64,000 nucleotides of DNA. Origin: Tistrella mobilis KA081020-065. Lineage in GTDB: Bacteria > Pseudomonadota > Alphaproteobacteria > Tistrellales > Tistrellaceae. Below are positions 15,810 to 25,922 of this stretch, piece by piece. A model generated the notes under the pieces. It was not told the origin of the DNA. It searched no databases and saw nothing but the letters and a program-made list of their open reading frames with translations. Position numbers and translations under genes: made by a program. The stretch is taken from the NCBI RefSeq assembly GCF_000264455.2, contig NC_017958.1:749001-813000 (forward strand), in the 5' to 3' direction. Numbering within the stretch: the stretch's first letter is position 1; each line of letters opens with the position of its first letter.

Positions 15810-16886
15810 ATGCACACCGATGCCGGCGACACGCTCTCCACCGGTTTCGTGCACGGGCTGCTGGAGGCGGCAGCCGGCATCACCACGCCCGACCGGCTGC
15901 GCGGCTTCGTGGCGGCGGCCGGCATCGCCCCCGACCTGCTGGATGCCCCGGCGGCACGCGTGACCCGCGACCAGATGGTGGCGCTGTATCAGCAGGTGGC
16001 GATCGGCACCGGCGACGAGATGATGGGGCTGTGGTCGCGGCGGATCCGCACCGGATCACTGAAGCTGCTCTGCACCGCGATGCTGGATGCGCCCTCGATC
16101 CTGACCGCGCTCTATCGCTTCACCCGGGTCTGGAACCTGCTGCTCGACGACTGGCGGCTGGAGTGCCACCGCCTGGGCGAGACCATCGAGGTGACGCTTG
16201 AGAGGGCAGCCGACGACGCCGTCACCCGCCCCTTCGGCCATGCGCTGATGATGAAGCTGCATCACGGCGTGACCTCGTGGCTGGCCGGCCGCGAGACCCC
16301 GGTGACCGGGGTGGACTTCGCCTTTCCGGCCCCGGCCCATGCCGCCGATCATGCCTTGCTCTTCCCCTGCCCCGTGCGCTTCGACGCGCCGGTCACCCGG
16401 CTGTGCATGCCGGCCGCGATCGGGCGGGAGAGCTTTCGGCGCAGCCGGCAGGAGATGCTGCCCTTCCTGCATGCCGCGCCAAGGCAGTGGCTGTTCACCA
16501 CGCTGCGCGAGCCGCAGATGGCCGATCGGGTACGCGACGAGCTGGCCCGCCATCTGTCCGGCCCCACGGATCTGGCGACGGTCGCCGCGGCCCTCGGCCA
16601 GTCCACCCGCAGCCTGTCGCGGCGGCTGGCCGAGGAAGGCACCAGCTTCCGGGCGGTGAAAGAGGCGCTGCGCCGCGACGTCGCGATCCGCGAGCTGACC
16701 CGCACCGACCGGCCGATCGCGGCGATCGCAGCCGAGCTGGGCTTCGATTCCGCCGCGGTCTTCCATCGCGCCTTCAAAGCCTGGACCGGCAGCACGCCGG
16801 GTGCCTATCGCCAGCCCGGCGGCGGCGCGGCCGGCGGGGAGAGCGCCGCCCCTATTTCCCGGCGCGGAACACGAGCGGGTTCATGA
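15810..16886 (+). CDS. AraC family transcriptional regulator
   Basis: A 358-residue regulator: an N-terminal arabinose-binding-type (OruR/ArgR-like) domain over about residues 20-210 and a C-terminal AraC double helix-turn-helix. In the latter, DLATVAAALGQSTRSLSRRLAEEG (about 255-278) and PIAAIAAELGFDSAAVFHRAFKAWTG (about 303-328) are the two recognition units. The ATG at 15810 follows AGGAGGGCGGAGAC. Divergent from the enoyl-CoA hydratase gene across 165 bases, which it probably regulates. Its last 35 bases overlap the 3' end of the FAD dehydrogenase on the other strand. Confidence 0.9.
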   Translation: MHTDAGDTLSTGFVHGLLEAAAGITTPDRLRGFVAAAGIAPDLLDAPAARVTRDQMVALYQQVAIGTGDEMMGLWSRRIRTGSLKLLCTAMLDAPSILTALYRFTRVWNLLLDDWRLECHRLGETIEVTLERAADDAVTRPFGHALMMKLHHGVTSWLAGRETPVTGVDFAFPAPAHAADHALLFPCPVRFDAPVTRLCMPAAIGRESFRRSRQEMLPFLHAAPRQWLFTTLREPQMADRVRDELARHLSGPTDLATVAAALGQSTRSLSRRLAEEGTSFRAVKEALRRDVAIRELTRTDRPIAAIAAELGFDSAAVFHRAFKAWTGSTPGAYRQPGGGAAGGESAAPISRRGTRAGS

Positions 16887-18279
16887 GCCCCTTGGGATCC
16901 ACCGCCTTGCGCAGCCGGGCGATCAGCTCGGCGCGCGGCTTCGGGCAGCGTTTGGCATAGGAGGCGGCCTTCAGCCGGCCGATGCCGTGCTCGGCGCTGA
17001 TCGAGCCCGAAAACTGGTCGACCACCCGGTAGGTGATGTCGGACACGCCGTCGACCGCATCCCTGGACGCGCCAGCCGCCAGCTGAACGTTGAAGTGGAT
17101 GTTGCCGTCGCCCAGATGGCCGAAGGGGTTGATCAGCGCATCCGGATGCACCCGCCAGATCGCTTCCGACGCCGCATGGACGAAGGCGGGCACGTCGGAG
17201 ACCTGAACCGAGACGTCGTGCTTGATCTGGATGCCCGGCGCCAGGCGCTGGCCTTCGACGATGGCTTCGCGCAGCAGCCAGAGCGCCTTGGCCTGGGCCT
17301 CGCTTTGGGCAATCGTGCCGTCGGTGACGAGCCCGGCCGAGAAAGCCTCTTCGACCAGCCGGTCCAGATCCTCCTGCAGGCGCTCGTCGGAGCGGCCGGA
17401 GATTTCGGTCAGCACCGTCCATTCCGGCCGCCCCTCCAGCGGGTCGACCACGCCCGCCACATGGGCGATAGCGAAATCGATGCCTTGGCGCGGGATCAGC
17501 TCGAAGCTTTCCACCGCATCGCCGGTGAACTCGCGGCAGAGCGACAGCAGCTTCGGCCCGTCGGCGAGCGAGGGCAGCGCGAAGAACAGGGTGCGGCTGG
17601 CGCGCAGCTGCGGGAACAGCTTGAGCGAGGCGGCCGTCACGATGCCGAGCGTGCCTTCCGCGCCGATGAACAGCTGCTTCAGGTCGTAGCCGACATTGTT
17701 TTTGCGCAGGGTGGTCAGCTCCGACAGCACCGAGCCGTCGGGCAGCACCACCTCCAGCCCCAGCACCAGATCGCGCATCATGCCATAGCGCATGACATGG
17801 ATGCCGCCGGCATTGGTCGCGATCAGCCCACCGATCTGGGCGGTCCCTTCGGCGCCGAGGCTGAGCGGGAATTTGCGCCCGGCATCGGCGGCGGCACGCT
17901 GCACCGTCTCCAGCACGCAGCCAGCTTCCACCACCATCGAGAAATCGAGCGTGTCGAGCGTGCGGATCCGGTTCATCCGGCCCAGCTGCAGCAGGATCGA
18001 GGCACCGTCGAGCCCCGGCACCGCCCCGCCGACCAGGCCGGTATTGCCGCCCTGGGGCACGATCGCGATCCCGGCCTCGGCACAAAGCCGCACCACGCCC
18101 GCGACCTCTTCGGTCGATTGCGGGCGCACCACGGCGATCGCCCGGCCCCTGTAAAGCTTCCGCCAGTCCTCGAGAAACGGCGCCATGTCGCCGTCATCGG
18201 TGATCAGACCGCGCGGGCCGGTGATCCCGCGCAGGCGGTCGATCAGGGTATCGGGCGCGATGGTGGCGGCGGCAGGCAT
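16852..18279 (-). CDS. FAD-linked D-2-hydroxyacid dehydrogenase (GlcD / D-lactate / D-2-hydroxyglutarate type)
   Basis: Oxidises a D-2-hydroxyacid to the 2-oxo acid. The PCMH-type FAD-binding domain spans about residues 1-230: VVRPQSTEEVAGVVRLC, VPQGGNTGLVGGAVP (pyrophosphate loop), then LSLGAEGTAQIGGLIATNAGG and FIGAEGTLGIVT. The C-terminal cap has the metal and substrate motifs NPFGHLGDGNIHFN and SISAEHGIGR. Length (475) is normal. The ATG at 18279 follows GGAGGAAC; the longer frame to 18396 is dropped. It is divergent from the GntR-lactonase fusion, with a perfect GntR-like palindrome between them, so it probably belongs to the same hydroxyacid or sugar-acid pathway. Confidence 0.9.
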   Translation of the reverse strand: MPAAATIAPDTLIDRLRGITGPRGLITDDGDMAPFLEDWRKLYRGRAIAVVRPQSTEEVAGVVRLCAEAGIAIVPQGGNTGLVGGAVPGLDGASILLQLGRMNRIRTLDTLDFSMVVEAGCVLETVQRAAADAGRKFPLSLGAEGTAQIGGLIATNAGGIHVMRYGMMRDLVLGLEVVLPDGSVLSELTTLRKNNVGYDLKQLFIGAEGTLGIVTAASLKLFPQLRASRTLFFALPSLADGPKLLSLCREFTGDAVESFELIPRQGIDFAIAHVAGVVDPLEGRPEWTVLTEISGRSDERLQEDLDRLVEEAFSAGLVTDGTIAQSEAQAKALWLLREAIVEGQRLAPGIQIKHDVSVQVSDVPAFVHAASEAIWRVHPDALINPFGHLGDGNIHFNVQLAAGASRDAVDGVSDITYRVVDQFSGSISAEHGIGRLKAASYAKRCPKPRAELIARLRKAVDPKGLMNPLVFRAGK

Positions 18280-18402
18280 GGGTCCGGTTCCTCCGAATGA
18301 TTGGCCGCGGCGCGCATACCCGAGGTGACGAGCGGGCCGGCGGCGGGGCGAGGATGGCAGGCTTGCAGGGCACTGCCCAGGGCTAAATTCATACATCGGA
18401 TT

Positions 18403-18421
18403 TCAGTTGTCAGACAACTGA
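18403..18421. promoter_or_regulatory. Perfect 19-base palindrome, probable GntR (FadR subfamily) operator
   Basis: TCAGTTGTCAGACAACTGA is fully self-complementary around a central A. The GT-x-AC half-site layout is typical for FadR-type GntR regulators. It lies in the divergent gap between the FAD dehydrogenase and the gene that encodes a GntR domain, so autoregulation plus control of the dehydrogenase is likely. Confidence 0.7.
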
Positions 18422-18523: not shown

Positions 18524-20188
18524 ATGAAACACGTGACCGACCGCAGCGGAAAGGCGCCGGAACGTCAGTTCCAGGCACTCAATCGCCCGAAGAGACTGTC
18601 CGACGAGATCGCCCGGCAGATTTCCGAGCGGATCGCGACCGGCGTCTTCGCCCCGGGCGAACGCATGCCGACCGAGGCCGAACTCGCCGTCGAGTTCGCC
18701 GTGGGCCGCAGCGCCATCCGCGAGGCGATCGCAAAACTGAGGCAGGAAGGCCTGGTCACCACCCGCCAGGGTGTGGGCGCCTTCGTGACCGAGGATCCGG
18801 GTGCCGCCTCGTTCCAGATCGACACCGACGGGCTCAGGACCATCGAGGATTTCCGTCATGTGATGGAACTCCGCATGGAACTGGAGGTCAGCGTCGCGGC
18901 CATGGCCGCACGCCGGCGCAGCCGCGCCCAGCTGGAGAAGGTCGAAGAGGCGTTCCAGGCCCTCAAATCCCGGCTGGAGCGCGGGGAAGCGGCGGTCGAC
19001 GAACAGCACGCCTTTCACCGCGCGATCGCCATCGCGAGCAACAACCCGCATTTCCGCGACTTCATGCAGTTCCTGGCCTCGCGCATCCGCGTGGCGCTGT
19101 CGGTGGAAACCGAACGCGCGACCGGCGGCCGCGATGCCGCGCGCAAGCTGCTGCGTGAATTCGAGGGGATCCTGACGGCCGTCCGCCTGGGCGATCCGGA
19201 CAAGGCCCGCCGCGCGGCCTGGTTCCATCTGCTCAGATCCGCCGACCGCCTGGGCCTCCGCGGCCTGCAGGGTTGGGAAGAAAGCAGGATGACCTTGATC
19301 GGAGAGAACCTCATACCGGTCTGCGCGCCCGCAGATCCGCAGCCCCGCAAGCCGCGCTTCACCCCGCCGCCGGGCGCCTGCGACTGCCATGCGCATATTT
19401 TCGGGCCGGAAAGCCGCTACCCCTATACGCGGCACCGCACCTACACCCCGCCGGATGCCCTGCTGCCGGCCTATAAGCACATGCTCGCCACGCTGGGCAT
19501 CCAGCGCGCGGTGATCGTGCAGCCCAGCGTCTACGGCACCGACAACCGCGCGACGCTGGATGCGATCCGCGCCGGCGGCCCGGATTTCCGCGGCGTGGTA
19601 GTGGTGGACGAGAACATCGACACCGCCGAGATGGAACGGATGCACGAGGCCGGCGTGCGCGGCGTGCGCATCAACCTGCTGTTCAAGAGCGGGATCGAGG
19701 TCTCGGACGTCCGCCGTCTGGCCGAGAAGATCGCCCCCTTCGGCTGGCATATGCAGATGCTGATCGACGTGTCGGAATTCGCCGACATCCGCGAGACCCT
19801 GGGCCGCCTGCCGGTCGATGTGGTCTTCGACCATCTGGGCCATATGCCGACCTCGATCGGCACCGACCATCCGGGCTTTCAGGAGATGCTGTCGCTGCTG
19901 GCCGACGGCCGCGCCTGGGCCAAGATCTCGGGCGCCTATCGCATCACCTCGGCCAGCCGCACGCCCTATGACGACGTGGCGCCCTATGCCCGCGCGATCA
20001 TCGCGGCCAATCCGGAACGGGTGGTCTGGGCCAGCGACTGGCCGCACCCCTACGTCAACATCCCGATGCCGAATGACGGCGACCTGCTCGACATGCTCGA
20101 CGACTGGTCGCCCGACGCCGCCACGCGCGACCGCATTCTGGCAACCAACCCCGCCAGGCTCTACGGCTTCGAGGAGTCGTCGTTTTAG
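18524..20188 (+). CDS. GntR regulator fused to a lactonase-type amidohydrolase
   Basis: A single 554-residue frame with two complete domains. Residues about 20-250 are a FadR-type GntR regulator: winged helix (RIATGVFAPGERMPTEAEL, then GRSAIREAIAKLRQEGLV) and an FCD ligand domain ending at about 250. Residues about 275-550 are an amidohydrolase of the 2-pyrone-4,6-dicarboxylate lactonase / galactarolactone isomerase group: CDCHAHIFGP (metal-site H-x-H), FDHLGHM and WASDWPHP. An in-frame ATG at 19289, after purine-rich GGAAGAAAG, could start a separate enzyme. Usually these are two genes, so this is a true fusion or a frame with an internal start. The TRAP operon follows; its substrate is probably a lactone or sugar-type acid. 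Confidence 0.85.
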   Translation: MKHVTDRSGKAPERQFQALNRPKRLSDEIARQISERIATGVFAPGERMPTEAELAVEFAVGRSAIREAIAKLRQEGLVTTRQGVGAFVTEDPGAASFQIDTDGLRTIEDFRHVMELRMELEVSVAAMAARRRSRAQLEKVEEAFQALKSRLERGEAAVDEQHAFHRAIAIASNNPHFRDFMQFLASRIRVALSVETERATGGRDAARKLLREFEGILTAVRLGDPDKARRAAWFHLLRSADRLGLRGLQGWEESRMTLIGENLIPVCAPADPQPRKPRFTPPPGACDCHAHIFGPESRYPYTRHRTYTPPDALLPAYKHMLATLGIQRAVIVQPSVYGTDNRATLDAIRAGGPDFRGVVVVDENIDTAEMERMHEAGVRGVRINLLFKSGIEVSDVRRLAEKIAPFGWHMQMLIDVSEFADIRETLGRLPVDVVFDHLGHMPTSIGTDHPGFQEMLSLLADGRAWAKISGAYRITSASRTPYDDVAPYARAIIAANPERVVWASDWPHPYVNIPMPNDGDLLDMLDDWSPDAATRDRILATNPARLYGFEESSF

Positions 20189-20352
20189 CCCCTCGCCGGG
20201 CGGGCGCTCCCGCGCCCTTGGCCCCCGCCTCAATGGCGGGAGTCGTTTTAGCCCCTCGCCGGGCGGGCGCTCCCGCGCCCTTGGCCCCCGCCTCAATGGC
20301 GGGAGTCTGTCAGTCCCCCGGCCCAAGCGGGCGCTCCCGCGCCCTCGCCCCC
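20179..20352 (+). repeat. 63-base tandem repeat, two exact copies plus a degenerate third
   Basis: Copies at 20179-20241 and 20242-20304 are identical by eye; 20305 to about 20352 is a decayed third copy. The first copy contains the TAG stop codon of the fusion gene. Each full unit can form two hairpins: GGGCGC / GCGCCC with a TCCC loop, and CCGCC / GGCGG with a TCAAT loop. The block lies just upstream of the TRAP binding-protein gene, so it may act as an attenuator or RNA-stability element. Confidence 0.85.
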
Positions 20353-20390: not shown

Positions 20391-21386
20391 ATGGGTTTCA
20401 CCCGACGCACCCTTCTCGGCGCAGCACTCGGCCTTGGCGCGCTGGTCGCCACCGTGCCGGCGATGGCCGCCGACGTGACCCTGAAGCTGGGCTGGACCAC
20501 CTCTGACGGTGCCACCGACCCCTATGCGATTGCGGCGCGCGACTTCGCCGCGGCGCTTGAGGCAGAGATGCCCGGCGTGTTCGAGGTGAAGTACTTCCCG
20601 AACCGCCAGCTGGGCGACGAGAAGGAAATGATCGAAGGCATGTCCTTCGGCACCATCGACGGCGGCATCATCACCAATGCGGTGATCGCCAATGTCGAGC
20701 CGGCCTTCCAGCTGCTGGACCTGCCCTTCCTGTTCGCGAACGAGGCCCAGGCCCACAAGGTTCTGGACGGCGATGTCGGCCAGGAGCTGATGGGCAAGCT
20801 GCGCAACCGCGGCATCATCGGCCTGGGCTTCGCCGAGGGCGGCTTCCGCCACATGATCAACAACACCCGCCCGGTGGCCCAGCCCGACGACGTGTCGGGC
20901 GTGAAGTACCGGGTGATGCAGAACCCGGTCTTCCTGGAAATGTTCAGCTCGCTGGGCGGCAACCCGGTGCCGATGGCCTGGGGCGAGACCTTCACCGCCG
21001 TGCAGCAGGGCACGATCGACGGGCTGGAAATTCCGGTCGCGGTCATCCAGGCCAACAAGTTCGCCGAGGTCACCAAGTATCTTTCGCTCACCCGCCATAC
21101 CTATTCGGCGCTGGGCGTGCTGATCTCGAAGCGCAGCTTCGAGAAGATGACCAAAGAACAGCAGGAGGCGGTGCTGCGCGCGGCCCCCAAGGCGATCGCC
21201 GCCCAGCGCGCCCAGGTGGCAGACAACACCAGGCAGATCATCGAAGAGCTGAAGGCCGCCGGCATGACGGTCAACGAGATCAGCGATCCCGCCGCCTTCC
21301 GGTCCAAGGTGACCGGCGTCTACGACCGCTTCAAGCCGCGGATCGGCGCCGAGTTGATGGACAAGGCCCTCGCCGAGGTCAACTGA
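20391..21386 (+). CDS. TRAP transporter solute-binding protein (DctP family)
   Basis: Periplasmic receptor of a TRAP transporter, 331 residues. The N-terminus MGFTRRTLLGAALGLGALV...AMAA looks like a Tat-type signal (RR followed by a hydrophobic stretch). Family patterns: YFPNRQLGDEKEMIEGM (about 65-81), then KYRVMQNPVFLEMFSSLGGNPVPM (split here at the conserved Arg that binds the ligand carboxylate, in VKYRVMQNP) and EIPVAVIQANKF. The ATG at 20391 has AGAGGAA upstream. First of dctP-Q-M in this operon. The ligand is probably a carboxylate handled by the upstream lactonase domain. Confidence 0.92.
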   Translation: MGFTRRTLLGAALGLGALVATVPAMAADVTLKLGWTTSDGATDPYAIAARDFAAALEAEMPGVFEVKYFPNRQLGDEKEMIEGMSFGTIDGGIITNAVIANVEPAFQLLDLPFLFANEAQAHKVLDGDVGQELMGKLRNRGIIGLGFAEGGFRHMINNTRPVAQPDDVSGVKYRVMQNPVFLEMFSSLGGNPVPMAWGETFTAVQQGTIDGLEIPVAVIQANKFAEVTKYLSLTRHTYSALGVLISKRSFEKMTKEQQEAVLRAAPKAIAAQRAQVADNTRQIIEELKAAGMTVNEISDPAAFRSKVTGVYDRFKPRIGAELMDKALAEVN

Positions 21387-21491
21387 CCCTGGTGACGGAC
21401 CGTCCGGCCGGCAGTGCGCCCCCCGCGCTGCCGGCCGGATGCCATTCCGGACCTGCGCATCCCCCGATCCTGACGGCAGACGGTGCCCCCC

Positions 21492-21998
21492 ATGTCGGCT
21501 TTGCTCCAGACCCTCTCGCGCGGGCTCGCCCGGGTGACCGGCTGGGTGATCGTGGCCATCACCACCGTGATGATGGTGAGCCTGATCCTCCAGGTGTTCT
21601 CGCGCTATGTGCTCGGCCAGGGCTTCACCTGGACCGAGGAACTCGCCCTGTTCCTGTTCACCTGGGTGGTGCTGCTCGCCGCCACGACCGCGATCCGCGA
21701 CGACGGCCATGTCCGCCTGCAGCTGTTCATCGACCTGCTGCCCGGGGCGGCACGGCGCATCTGGATGCGCTGTCTGACGCTGACGGTGCTGATCTTCTGC
21801 TTGGTGTTCGCGGCAACCGGGGCCGAATACGTCTCGGCCACGCTGGGCCAGGTTTCGGCCGCGGTGCAATACCCGATCGAGGCGCTGCACATGGCGGCCC
21901 CGGTGACCGGCGTGCTGGGGGCGATCCACGCCCTGGCCCGGCTGCTGGCTCCGCAATCGGTGATCGACGGCACGCCCGAAACCGGAGGCATGGTATGA
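21492..21998 (+). CDS. TRAP transporter small permease (DctQ family)
   Basis: Small integral-membrane subunit, about 168 residues with four predicted helices (about 12-35, 48-70, 90-112, 130-150). The hallmark DctQ segment is RYVLGQGFTWTEELALFLFTW, with TEE typical of the family, followed by the DDGHVRLQLF segment. The start is either the ATG at 21492 (chosen) or the GTG at 21483; neither has a strong ribosome site. Its stop overlaps the next start (ATGA). Works with DctM to pass the solute using the sodium gradient. Confidence 0.9.
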   Translation: MSALLQTLSRGLARVTGWVIVAITTVMMVSLILQVFSRYVLGQGFTWTEELALFLFTWVVLLAATTAIRDDGHVRLQLFIDLLPGAARRIWMRCLTLTVLIFCLVFAATGAEYVSATLGQVSAAVQYPIEALHMAAPVTGVLGAIHALARLLAPQSVIDGTPETGGMV

Positions 21999-23278
21999 GC
22001 ACCGCCGCAGCCGTTCTGCTGATCGCCTTCGCCGTCTGCCTGTTCAGCGGCGTGCCGATCGTCTTCTCGCTGGGCCTTGCCGCCATCGCCGGGCTCTGGG
22101 CTGCCGATTTCGACCTGATCGTGCTGGCCCAGCGGACGATTTCGGGCACCCAGGTCTTCACCCTGCTCGCCATTCCGGGCTTCGTGCTGGCCGGCGATCT
22201 GATGATGCATGGCGGGCTGTCGCGCCGCCTGGTCCGGCTCTGCCAGGTTCTGGTGCAGCATGTGACCGGCGGGCTCGGCATGGTCACTGTGCTCTCGGCC
22301 ACCTTCTTCGCCGCGATCTCGGGCTCGGCACCGGCCACCACCGCCGCCATCGGCGGCATCATGGTGCCCGAGATGGAGCGCCACGGCTGGAGCCGCCGCT
22401 TCGCCGCAGCACTCTCCACCGCCGCCGGCCCGATCGGGCAGATGATCCCGCCCTCGATCCCCATGGTCATCTGGGGCGTGGTCGCCGAACAGTCGATCAC
22501 CAAACTGTTCCTGGCGGGCATCGTGCCCGGCATCCTGATCGCCATCGGGCTGATGACGGTGTGCTGGTTCGCCGCCCGCGCCCAGGGCATCCCCAAGGCG
22601 ACCCGCCGGGCGACCGCCCGCGAACTGCTGGTGGCGCTGAATGACGGCAAATGGGCGCTGGCGGCGCCGCTGGTCATTCTGGGCGGCATCTATGGCGGCA
22701 TCTTCACCCCCACCGAGGCCTCGGCGATCGGCGTCGCCTATGCCTTCGTGGTCGGCATGTTCATCTATCGCGAGTTGAAGGTCCGCGACCTGCCGGGCAT
22801 TCTGCTCCAGTCGATGCGCACCACCACCATCGTCTGCAGCATCATCGCCGTCGCCTCGGCCTTCGGCTGGCTGGTCGCCATCGAACAGCTGCCGACGGTG
22901 ATCGCCGAAGCCATACTGTCGGTCTCGTCGAACCCGATCGTCATCCTGATGATGATCAACGTGTTGCTGCTGTTCATCGGCGCGATCATGGACAATGTGG
23001 CGGCGATGATCATCCTGGGCGGCGTGCTGACCAGCATCGGCGCCAGCCTGGGGCTGGACCCGATCCATCTGGGCGCGATCGTGGTGATCAACTTCGCGAT
23101 CGGCATGGCCACCCCACCCTTCGGCTATTCGCTGTTCGTCGGCGCCGCGATCAGCAGGCTGTCGGTCGAAGAGGTCTCCAAAGCGCTCTGGCCGATGCTG
23201 CTGGTCAAGATCCTGGTGCTGGCGCTGATCACCTATGTTCCCGGGGTGGTTCTGGCCCTGCCGCGGCTGCTCGGCTGA
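21995..23278 (+). CDS. TRAP transporter large permease (DctM family)
   Basis: The 427-residue channel subunit, about 11-12 membrane helices. Family signatures: the N-terminal VCLFSGVPIVFSLGLAA, LLAIPGFVLAGDLM (about 58-71), AAISGSAPATTAAIGGIMVP (about 107-126) and IPPSIPMVIWGV (about 148-159), then GIFTPTEASAIGV and IGMATPPFGYSLFVG in the second half. Start ATG overlaps the dctQ stop. Last gene of the unit, followed by a strong terminator. Confidence 0.93.
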   Translation: MSTAAAVLLIAFAVCLFSGVPIVFSLGLAAIAGLWAADFDLIVLAQRTISGTQVFTLLAIPGFVLAGDLMMHGGLSRRLVRLCQVLVQHVTGGLGMVTVLSATFFAAISGSAPATTAAIGGIMVPEMERHGWSRRFAAALSTAAGPIGQMIPPSIPMVIWGVVAEQSITKLFLAGIVPGILIAIGLMTVCWFAARAQGIPKATRRATARELLVALNDGKWALAAPLVILGGIYGGIFTPTEASAIGVAYAFVVGMFIYRELKVRDLPGILLQSMRTTTIVCSIIAVASAFGWLVAIEQLPTVIAEAILSVSSNPIVILMMINVLLLFIGAIMDNVAAMIILGGVLTSIGASLGLDPIHLGAIVVINFAIGMATPPFGYSLFVGAAISRLSVEEVSKALWPMLLVKILVLALITYVPGVVLALPRLLG

Positions 23279-23490: not shown

Positions 23491-24513
23491 ATGAAGGTCT
23501 ACGACTCGGTCCTGGATGCCGTCGGCGATACGCCGATGGTCCGGATCCGCCGCGTTGCGAGGGAGCTGCCGGCGGAGATCTTCGCCAAGCTCGAATTCAT
23601 GAACCCCGGTGGCAGCGTCAAGGACCGCCTGGTCCGCTACCTGCTGGAGCGGTATGAGGAAGCGGGCGCGCTGACGCCCGAGACCGTGCTGGTCGAGAAT
23701 TCCTCGGGCAATACCGGCGCCGCCCTGTCGATGGCGGCGGCCGTCCGCGGCATCGGCTGCGTGGTGACCATCCCCGACAAGATGAGCCCCGAGAAGATCG
23801 CCCGGATGCGCGCCTTCGGCACGAAGGTGGTGGTGGCCCCCACCGCCGTGCCGGCGGAAGCGCCCGAAAGCTATTACAGCCAGGCCCGGCGTATCGCCGA
23901 AGAGACGCCCGGAGCGATCTATCCGGACCAGTACAACAACCCGCTGAATGCAGCCGCCCATTACGCCAGCACCGGGCCCGAGATCTGGGAACAGACCGGC
24001 GGCCGGATCGACGCCTTCGTCTGCGGCATCGGCACCGGCGGCACGATCAGCGGCGTGGGCCGCTATCTGAAGGAACGGGATCCGTCGATCCGGGTGATCG
24101 GCGTCGACCCGGAAGGCAGCGTCTTCCACGACCAGTTCCATCACGGCCGGTTGAGCACACCGCATGTCTATCAGGTGGAGGGCATTGGCGAGGATTATCT
24201 GGTCGAGGCGGTGGATTTCTCGGTGATCGACGACATCATCCGGGTCGACGACAGGTCTTCGTTCCTGACCGCGCGCCGGCTGGTGCGCGAGGAAGGGCTG
24301 CTCTGCGGCGGATCGAGCGGGGCTGCGATGTGGGGCGCGCTGCAGGTGGCGGACCGCTTCCCCGGCGGCCGGATCGTGGTGCTGCTGCCCGATTCCGGCA
24401 ACATGTATCGCAGCAAGTTCCTGGATGATGCCTGGATGGTCCGGCATGGCCATCTGGCGGCTCCGACGGCAGCAACGCCGCAGGCCATGGCGGCCGTGGC
24501 AGGTGCAGAATGA
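23491..24513 (+). CDS. PLP-dependent cystathionine beta-synthase / cysteine synthase family enzyme
   Basis: A 340-residue fold-type II PLP enzyme that replaces the beta substituent of serine or an activated serine. The PLP lysine is K44 in GGSVKDR; NSSGNTG (70-76) binds the substrate carboxylate; GTGGT (181-185) holds the PLP phosphate. VDPEGS, QVEGIG and EEGLLCGGSSGAA match cystathionine beta-synthase closely, but the CBS regulatory domain is absent. SbnA, which makes diaminopropionate precursors for siderophores, belongs to the same fold. First gene of the operon; it overlaps the next start (ATGA). With no other cysteine or methionine genes nearby it probably makes a building block, such as a beta-substituted alanine, for the pathway. 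Confidence 0.88.
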   Translation: MKVYDSVLDAVGDTPMVRIRRVARELPAEIFAKLEFMNPGGSVKDRLVRYLLERYEEAGALTPETVLVENSSGNTGAALSMAAAVRGIGCVVTIPDKMSPEKIARMRAFGTKVVVAPTAVPAEAPESYYSQARRIAEETPGAIYPDQYNNPLNAAAHYASTGPEIWEQTGGRIDAFVCGIGTGGTISGVGRYLKERDPSIRVIGVDPEGSVFHDQFHHGRLSTPHVYQVEGIGEDYLVEAVDFSVIDDIIRVDDRSSFLTARRLVREEGLLCGGSSGAAMWGALQVADRFPGGRIVVLLPDSGNMYRSKFLDDAWMVRHGHLAAPTAATPQAMAAVAGAE

Positions 24514-25922
24514 CCGCCGTCGCAGCCGGGCCGTCCGTGGCCGAATCCCCGGTGGCGGCCGGCGTGATGCCGGGCGCGCGCTGGGCCTTCGCCGACCGCA
24601 TCGACCTGATGGACGAAAGCCTGCGCGAGGGCGCCGAACGCGCCAGCGTGCCGCCGGACCTGGACGCCAAATGCGATCTGGCCCGGGCGATCGCCGATGT
24701 CGGCATCCGCACGCTGGTGGTCGGCATGTTCCCCGACGTGCCGCAGAATGCCGAGTTGCTGGCACGGCTGGTGCGCCGCCAGCAGGCCGGGCAGCTGCCC
24801 GCCGATCTGCGCTTCATGGTCATCTCTCATGTCGGCGTGACCATGCGCCAGACGCTGGCCATGCTCGACGAACTGGCGATCCCGCTCGACACGGTGCATG
24901 TGATCGCGATCCATTCGGTTTCGGATCTGCAGATCACCCATCTGTTTCCGACCATTCTGCGCAAGGACGGCGCCGTCGACTGGGATCAGGCCGCCTGGGA
25001 GGCGCTGGACGATGCCACGCGGCGGGCGCGCAATCTGGACTGGCTGGCCGATTTCCTGCCGGTGGTGACCGGCTGGCGCGGCGGCGGGGTGATGGTCGGG
25101 TTGCTGGATGCCTTCCGCGCCGATCACGGCCATCTGATGAATGCGGTGGCAACCGTGGCCGCGGCCGGCATCCGCCAGATCCGCCTGGTCGACACCGCCG
25201 GCACCTGCCTGCCCCATCAGCTGCCCCAGACCGTGGGCGAGCCGGTGACGCGCTTCCCCGACATCGCCTTCTACGGCCATTTCCACGACGATTTCGGCAT
25301 GTCGACCGCCAATGCGGTGATGGGGCTGTCGCTGGGGCTGAAGGGGGTCGACGTCTCGGTCGGCGGCTTCGCCAACCGGGCCGGACATCCGCCGCTGGCC
25401 GAGGTGGTGATGGCGCTGCGCAAACTCTACGGCGTGGAGCTGCCGGGCGTGGACCCCAGCCGGCTGCACGGGCTGAGCCGGATGGCAGAGCGGATCTACG
25501 GGCTGATGGAAAACCCCGCCCAGGCGATCACCGGCGTCGTCACCCACAGCGTGCAGAGCGGCATCCGTACCGAGTTGCTGCGCAAGGCCCCGCGGATCTT
25601 CGACGCGATCGCCCCCGAAGAGGTCGGTGCCCGACTGGTGGCGATGTTCGGGGTGCGCAGCGGTCGCGACGGGCTGCTGCGCTTTCTGCGCGAACGCCAG
25701 CTGCTCGCCCCCTTCGGCCTGGAGCCGACGCCCGAGATCGCCGACGCGCTGTTCGAACATCTGGACGCCGAATGGGCCCGCCGCAGCGCCGGCGCCCGCG
25801 CAAGGCTGGGCGAGCTGATCGAACAGTATCAGGACACGCTGAACGCATCCTTCTTTACCGAAGAGGCTATGACGTCATGGCTGAGCGCGCATCTGACCGC
25901 CGTGCATATGAAGACGGCCTGA
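24510..25922 (+). CDS. DRE-TIM metallolyase, isopropylmalate / homocitrate synthase-like
   Basis: A 470-residue enzyme of the HMG-CoA lyase-like superfamily, which joins an acyl-CoA to a 2-oxo acid or cleaves such products. The barrel covers about residues 30-300. DESLREG (35-41) stands where LeuA has DTTLRDG; metal ligands are D35 and the two histidines of GHFHDDFGM (257 and 259). VDTAGTCLPHQLP (228-240) and SVGGFANRAGHPPL follow. The changed DRE motif (D-x-x-x-R-E) and the short C-terminus without the LeuA allosteric domain argue against leucine synthesis. Its place among PLP, diiron and ATP-grasp enzymes suggests it makes a special acid unit. Substrates are unknown. Confidence 0.82.
   Translation: MTAVAAGPSVAESPVAAGVMPGARWAFADRIDLMDESLREGAERASVPPDLDAKCDLARAIADVGIRTLVVGMFPDVPQNAELLARLVRRQQAGQLPADLRFMVISHVGVTMRQTLAMLDELAIPLDTVHVIAIHSVSDLQITHLFPTILRKDGAVDWDQAAWEALDDATRRARNLDWLADFLPVVTGWRGGGVMVGLLDAFRADHGHLMNAVATVAAAGIRQIRLVDTAGTCLPHQLPQTVGEPVTRFPDIAFYGHFHDDFGMSTANAVMGLSLGLKGVDVSVGGFANRAGHPPLAEVVMALRKLYGVELPGVDPSRLHGLSRMAERIYGLMENPAQAITGVVTHSVQSGIRTELLRKAPRIFDAIAPEEVGARLVAMFGVRSGRDGLLRFLRERQLLAPFGLEPTPEIADALFEHLDAEWARRSAGARARLGELIEQYQDTLNASFFTEEAMTSWLSAHLTAVHMKTA

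Follow-up and report, generated by a model that had tools for sequence, protein, structure and literature searches.

Can a complete repressor and a complete enzyme be joined in one polypeptide, and what becomes of the repressor's sensor when they are? The question is raised by a locus of Tistrella mobilis KA081020-065 where a FadR-type GntR regulator and a lactonase-like amidohydrolase are read in a single frame. We analysed this locus within a stretch of 64,000 nucleotides (contig NC_017958.1, positions 749,001 to 813,000; hereafter the window), which belongs to a 6.5 Mb genome in five contigs. Coordinates are those of the window and are collected in Table 1.

Table 1. Features of the fused gene and its surroundings
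Feature	Position	Strand	Basis
Divergent FAD-linked 2-hydroxyacid dehydrogenase, D-2-hydroxyglutarate-dehydrogenase-like	16852..18300	-	PF02913/PF01565
Operator-like palindrome GTTGTCAGACAAC, resembling the DhdR operator GTTATCAGATAAC	18406..18418		Unique in genome, conserved
Fused gene: GntR (FadR/FCD) regulator, linker, LigI-like amidohydrolase, 554 aa	18524..20188	+	Open frame, Pfam, G142/G001, omega
Winged helix DNA-binding domain, residues 25-88	18596..18787	+	PF00392, 72.6 bits
FCD effector/dimerisation domain, residues 113-236	18860..19231	+	PF07729, 71.8 bits
Flexible linker from FCD to enzyme, residues 248-270	19265..19333	+	Predicted structure, pLDDT <50
In-frame ATG (Met256), relic start codon of free-standing enzyme	19289..19291	+	Alignment, Shine-Dalgarno energy test
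LigI-like lactonase domain, residues 286-549	19379..20170	+	PF04909, 193.8 bits; LigI 4d8l; Foldseek
TRAP transporter dctP, dctQ, dctM, downstream of fusion	20391..23278	+	Pfam; same order in G135, G236, G317

A regulator and an enzyme in one frame

The frame runs without interruption from ATG 18524 to TAG 20188 (554 codons) and is a true regulator-enzyme fusion. Its three domains score well over the curated Pfam cut-offs and are complete or nearly so: the GntR domain covers 64/64 model positions, the FCD domain positions 2-123 of 125 and the Amidohydro_2 domain 289/289. The predicted structure (mean pLDDT 74, pTM 0.53; one row from a plasmid record was left out of the alignment) consists of a winged helix, a seven-helix FCD bundle and a TIM barrel, with a linker of about 40 residues between FCD and enzyme whose core is disordered. 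When the model was compared with the PDB by Foldseek, the regulator led to DhdR and the barrel to LigI, whose entries were the top matches (TMt 0.84-0.85). The initial annotation, which had described two complete domains in one frame, a FadR-type GntR regulator and a lactonase-like enzyme, is thus borne out. The winged helix and seven-helix domain assign the N-terminal half to the FadR/FCD members of the GntR superfamily, and the TIM barrel with its HxH, His and Asp assigns the C-terminal half to the Amidohydro_2/LigI-like lactonases. The protein falls outside the MocR/GabR group: NCBIfam MocR models cover the N-terminal regulator part only, and an aminotransferase domain is absent.

Could assembly or sequencing have fused two separate genes? 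A change of one base at an ATGA overlap would suffice, but the possibility is practically nil. A frameshift or stop between the domains had been named as what would refute the fusion; instead, the same fused frame is open in two more genomes, one of the same species (G142) and one of another species in the genus (G001), that is, in 3/3 genomes of the order compared, and the two species differ within it at 47 synonymous positions. The identical frame in three assemblies also rules out an oddity of one strain.

Against these 47 synonymous differences stand only 3 nonsynonymous ones (omega, dN/dS, 0.019), whereas omega is 0.08-0.09 for the neighbouring GlcD (dehydrogenase) and DctM. Between the two species the winged helix (residues 21-92) carries 0 nonsynonymous and 5 synonymous differences, the linker (residues 241-285) carries no nonsynonymous difference, and omega of the regulator half is 0.02. 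With omega near 0.02 and an unchanged winged helix and linker, both halves and the linker therefore appear to be selected as protein. Decay of the regulator is ruled out by dN/dS. The wider proposal of a relic, a regulator half that no longer regulates and only dimerises the enzyme, or that is decaying, draws on the loss of metal ligands described below and on the recognition-helix motif, where position 61, Ser in nearly all relatives, is Gly in the fusion. We regard it as quite improbable, given the silent pattern of change in the winged helix, the low omega of the whole half and an operator that is identical in both species.

The enzyme half has LigI (4d8l) as a full-length homologue (E 1e-55). 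LigI H31, H33, R124, H180, R217 and D248 correspond to H289, H291, R382, H437, R473 and D505 of the fusion, so the catalytic His and Asp residues (H289, H291, H437, D505) are intact. On this evidence of sequence and predicted fold the half is a lactonase-type enzyme. It is not LigI proper, the 2-pyrone-4,6-dicarboxylate lactonase (hydrolase), which itself lacks a regulator domain: LigI R130, Y156 and R183, which we take to hold the substrate carboxylates, are represented in the fusion by a gap, L413 and H440. The substrate is therefore probably not 2-pyrone-4,6-dicarboxylate. The best NCBIfam model is 4-sulfomuconolactone hydrolase (NF042924), and this identity was rejected at 226.8 bits, far under the equivalog cut-off of 500 bits.

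Origin of the fused gene and its internal start codon

How did the two genes come to be one? Outside the genus, the relatives of the enzyme are free-standing in all genomes and loci examined. A match across both halves was found outside the genus in none of 142 relatives and in none of 398 genomes of the phylum, nor among the matches listed for another family of the phylum (399 genomes). None of 80 named loci has a fused frame, plasmid records show nothing closer than two pieces in neighbouring genes, and a search for literature on GntR-amidohydrolase fusions returned nothing relevant. The merge of a complete FCD repressor with a lactonase was thus found in no other genome searched here. The initial annotation had counted separate genes in relatives, combined with an isolated fusion in this strain, against its reading. 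Separation outside the genus holds, but isolation does not: the fusion is fixed in the two species, as seen in three genomes, and purifying selection on it is strong.

Two further features of the relatives deserve mention. A free-standing amidohydrolase without a GntR domain in Sphingobium sp. TomTYG72 (L118, 6034-6927; BDX88983.1) is annotated 'GntR family transcriptional regulator', a label that may stem from a fused protein such as the 554-residue one. In six loci from Bradyrhizobium and other genomes (L100, L105, L106, L062, L110, L114) the lactonase gene lies in tandem pairs.

A likely state before the merge is preserved in three genomes of another alphaproteobacterial genus (G135, G236, G317), where gntR, lactonase, dctP, dctQ and dctM follow one another in the order seen in the window, apart from gntR and lactonase being separate genes. 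The stop of gntR and the start of the lactonase gene overlap as ATGA in G135 and G317 and lie two bases apart in G236; in an Achromobacter locus (L117) the genes are 32 bases apart. Aligned by hand, the junction reads GAG GAA TCG ACA TGA in G135 and GAA GAA AGC AGG ATG A in the window. One net extra base in the window brings the former ATG into the reading frame and shifts the former TGA out of it, which explains the merging of the genes. As relatives carry separate genes, parsimony suggests that the fusion is the derived state.

Is the old start codon still in use? It was proposed at the outset that an in-frame ATG at 19289 with a purine-rich leader might yield the enzyme alone, so that one gene would give two products: a repressor, which is the full fusion, and the lactonase by itself. 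The in-frame ATG is real. When the free-standing relatives L010 and L011 are aligned with the fusion, their first Met falls on Met256; the codon is therefore the relic start, exactly at the ancestral position. Both ATG and leader are identical in the two species, but conservation of so short a stretch is expected anyway at such identity. The leader, for its part, proved to be a weak Shine-Dalgarno sequence. In G135, G236 and G317 the start of the unfused lactonase gene is preceded by GGAGGAA (dG -9.3 in G135), and the fused gene has GGGAAGAAAGCAGG (dG -5.0), which points to degradation of a strong site; it ranks 82/211 among in-frame start-like codons of nearby genes and 25/75 among ATG codons. 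The Shine-Dalgarno test thus lends no support to an efficient internal start, the two-protein proposal is weakened, and we consider it unlikely.

The operator-like palindrome and the neighbouring genes

What might the fused regulator control? Its closest solved relative is DhdR (E 3.5e-40), the repressor of D-2-hydroxyglutarate catabolism, whose footprint contains GTTATCAGATAAC (PMC8651671). DhdR of Achromobacter denitrificans (PDB 9jpj, 9vkn; PMC8651671) is likewise a GntR regulator of the FCD type, with about 38-39% identity to the fusion, and is likewise linked to a D-2-hydroxyglutarate dehydrogenase gene. It differs in lacking an enzyme domain and in keeping D-H-H-H at the metal site, where the fusion has a C-terminal lactonase and Q-H-F-H. 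The palindrome that had been pointed out at 18403-18421 is real. Its core, GTTGTCAGACAAC, is the sole site within one mismatch in the whole genome and lies between the fusion and the divergent dehydrogenase gene. Like the DhdR operator, it is a 13-bp palindrome with a 1-bp centre; GTTATCAGACAAC stands directly before gntR in G135, G236 and G317. The operator-like site together with the divergent D-2-hydroxyglutarate-dehydrogenase-like gene reproduces the context of DhdR-type regulators, by sequence similarity only. A scan for sigma-70 promoters found none. Because the putative operator lies between the fusion and the dehydrogenase gene, autorepression and control of the divergent gene may be expected.

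The closest solved relatives of the dehydrogenase are 3pm9 and human D2HGDH (6lpn). The TRAP binding protein, the product of dctP, which starts at ATG 20391, is closest to 4pdd, 4nq8, 4p47, 4p9k and 4pdh, presumably the same set as the published structures of related binding proteins. Those structures are reported with pantoate or erythronate bound, not 2-hydroxyglutarate (PMC11668362). Dehydrogenase, lactonase and transporter together suggest as substrate an (R)-2-hydroxy acid able to form a gamma-lactone. D-2-hydroxyglutarate would be the first candidate because the regulator is DhdR-like, but we infer the substrate from neighbouring genes only, with D-erythronate or pantoate as alternatives. 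In Pandoraea cepalis (L090, 2678-5861) gntR, a D2HGDH-like dehydrogenase gene and the lactonase gene follow one another on the same strand, an arrangement that speaks for all three acting in one pathway.

The sequences downstream of the fusion have features of their own. Between the fusion and dctP stand two tandem copies (20179-20304) of a 63-bp direct repeat, GTCGTTTTAG...CAATGGCGGGA, with a partial third copy at 20316-20352. The repeat contains the stop codon of the fusion, and the two species differ there. Its core, with up to 3 mismatches allowed, has 17 copies in the genome, often paired about 62-64 bp apart, and the repeat is a REP-like element. The region 3' of dctM (23491-25922, compared with L122 and L123) is variable within the genus: the distance from dctM to the cysteine-synthase-like gene is about 4.8 kb greater in G001, and the gene was not found in the stretch of G142 compared, which has a second partial dctM match downstream.

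A changed metal site and the question of sensing

A specific change in the regulator half concerns the metal site of the FCD domain, which reads Q161-H165-F213-H235 in every fused genome. At the same positions (161, 165, 213, 235) 28/28 unfused relatives have D-H-H-H, as does DhdR, and the His at position 213 is kept by all 23 other FCD regulators of the same genome. The fusion thus departs from the D/N-H-H-H pattern of metal-dependent FCD regulators of the DhdR, DgoR, CitO and LldR type. In DgoR the metal ligands D146, H150 and H195 are required for effector binding (PMC7674646), and the H191A change in CitO reduces the response to metal and citrate (PMC4746285). From the contrast of Q-H-F-H with D-H-H-H, the classical metal-dependent pocket is predicted to have been lost in the fused lineage. 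Altered sensing is therefore plausible with two metal ligands gone, yet metal-free FCD sensors exist: in FadR Phe, Tyr and Tyr replace His residues, and the domain senses its ligand without metal.

What are the implications for the fused protein? A DhdR-like FCD-type GntR regulator and a LigI-like lactonase have merged in this genus into one conserved protein, and we think it fairly probable that it works as an autorepressor-lactonase, resembling a trigger enzyme, for a lactone-forming (R)-2-hydroxy acid. The dimeric fusion protein would bind GTTGTCAGACAAC and control the divergent D-2-hydroxyacid dehydrogenase, its own gene and the TRAP transporter. The (R)-2-hydroxy acid would be imported, its lactone opened by the tethered TIM barrel and the resulting acid then oxidised by the dehydrogenase. 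Repressor and enzyme would be produced 1:1 and limit themselves, as is the case for PutA and other trigger enzymes. The original metal-dependent pocket would no longer work as it does in DhdR, and induction might therefore proceed through a metal-free ligand site of the FCD domain, as in FadR, or through substrate occupancy of the attached enzyme.

The second route, which the initial annotation had raised as direct sensing of the substrate by a catalytic domain on a repressor, can be taken further. Metal-dependent binding of the effector may have been lost from the FCD domain, and the catalytic barrel may have become the sensor, substrate occupancy or turnover releasing the repressor from DNA. 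This relocation of the sensor is a tentative proposal, to which we give a rather low probability. The predicted structure has no regulator-enzyme contact of fixed geometry (pTM 0.53), so coupling between the halves is not evident. Fusion and ligand loss were each seen in one lineage only, and their association is therefore statistically a single coincidence. A merge of convenience has a better chance, if somewhat less than an even one: repressor and enzyme would act independently on a flexible tether, without cross-talk, the FCD domain sensing its own ligand free of metal. Such a neutral merge is consistent with the disordered linker and low pTM, with an otherwise preserved FCD fold that retains the effector-contacting R117, with the FadR precedent and with the sufficiency of one net extra base at the ATGA overlap. 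It sits less well with the fact that 2/4 metal ligands, invariant elsewhere, were lost in just the lineage that carries the fusion, which suggests a change in sensing, and with a linker constraint stronger than a neutral tether needs, small as the sample is.

The autorepressor-lactonase that we favour is not without precedent, since the regulator-enzyme fusions PutA, BirA and MocR are already known. The trigger enzymes PutA, BirA and NadR (PMC8249747) likewise combine an enzyme and a DNA-binding domain in one polypeptide, and this architecture is present in the predicted protein. PutA moreover binds between divergent metabolic and transporter genes, as our model proposes for the fusion. Those proteins use other DNA-binding and catalytic folds, whereas in the fusion a classical repressor is kept whole, effector domain included. 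In MocR/GabR proteins, too, a flexible linker connects a GntR-superfamily winged helix with an enzyme fold, but MocR lacks an FCD domain and its aminotransferase fold acts as sensor instead; the fusion has both FCD domain and lactonase. What is new here is the change of the FCD metal site to Q-H-F-H in a fused protein. The locus unites a fusion with a likely before state, an apparent one-base origin, a clear operator-like site and a sensing pocket altered at specific residues. If sensor relocation is true, the fusion would be a repressor with an active site as its inducer site, and the unmerged, ancestor-like state is still there for comparison. The locus may thus offer a compact system for learning how a repressor changes its sensor once it is joined to an enzyme under its control.
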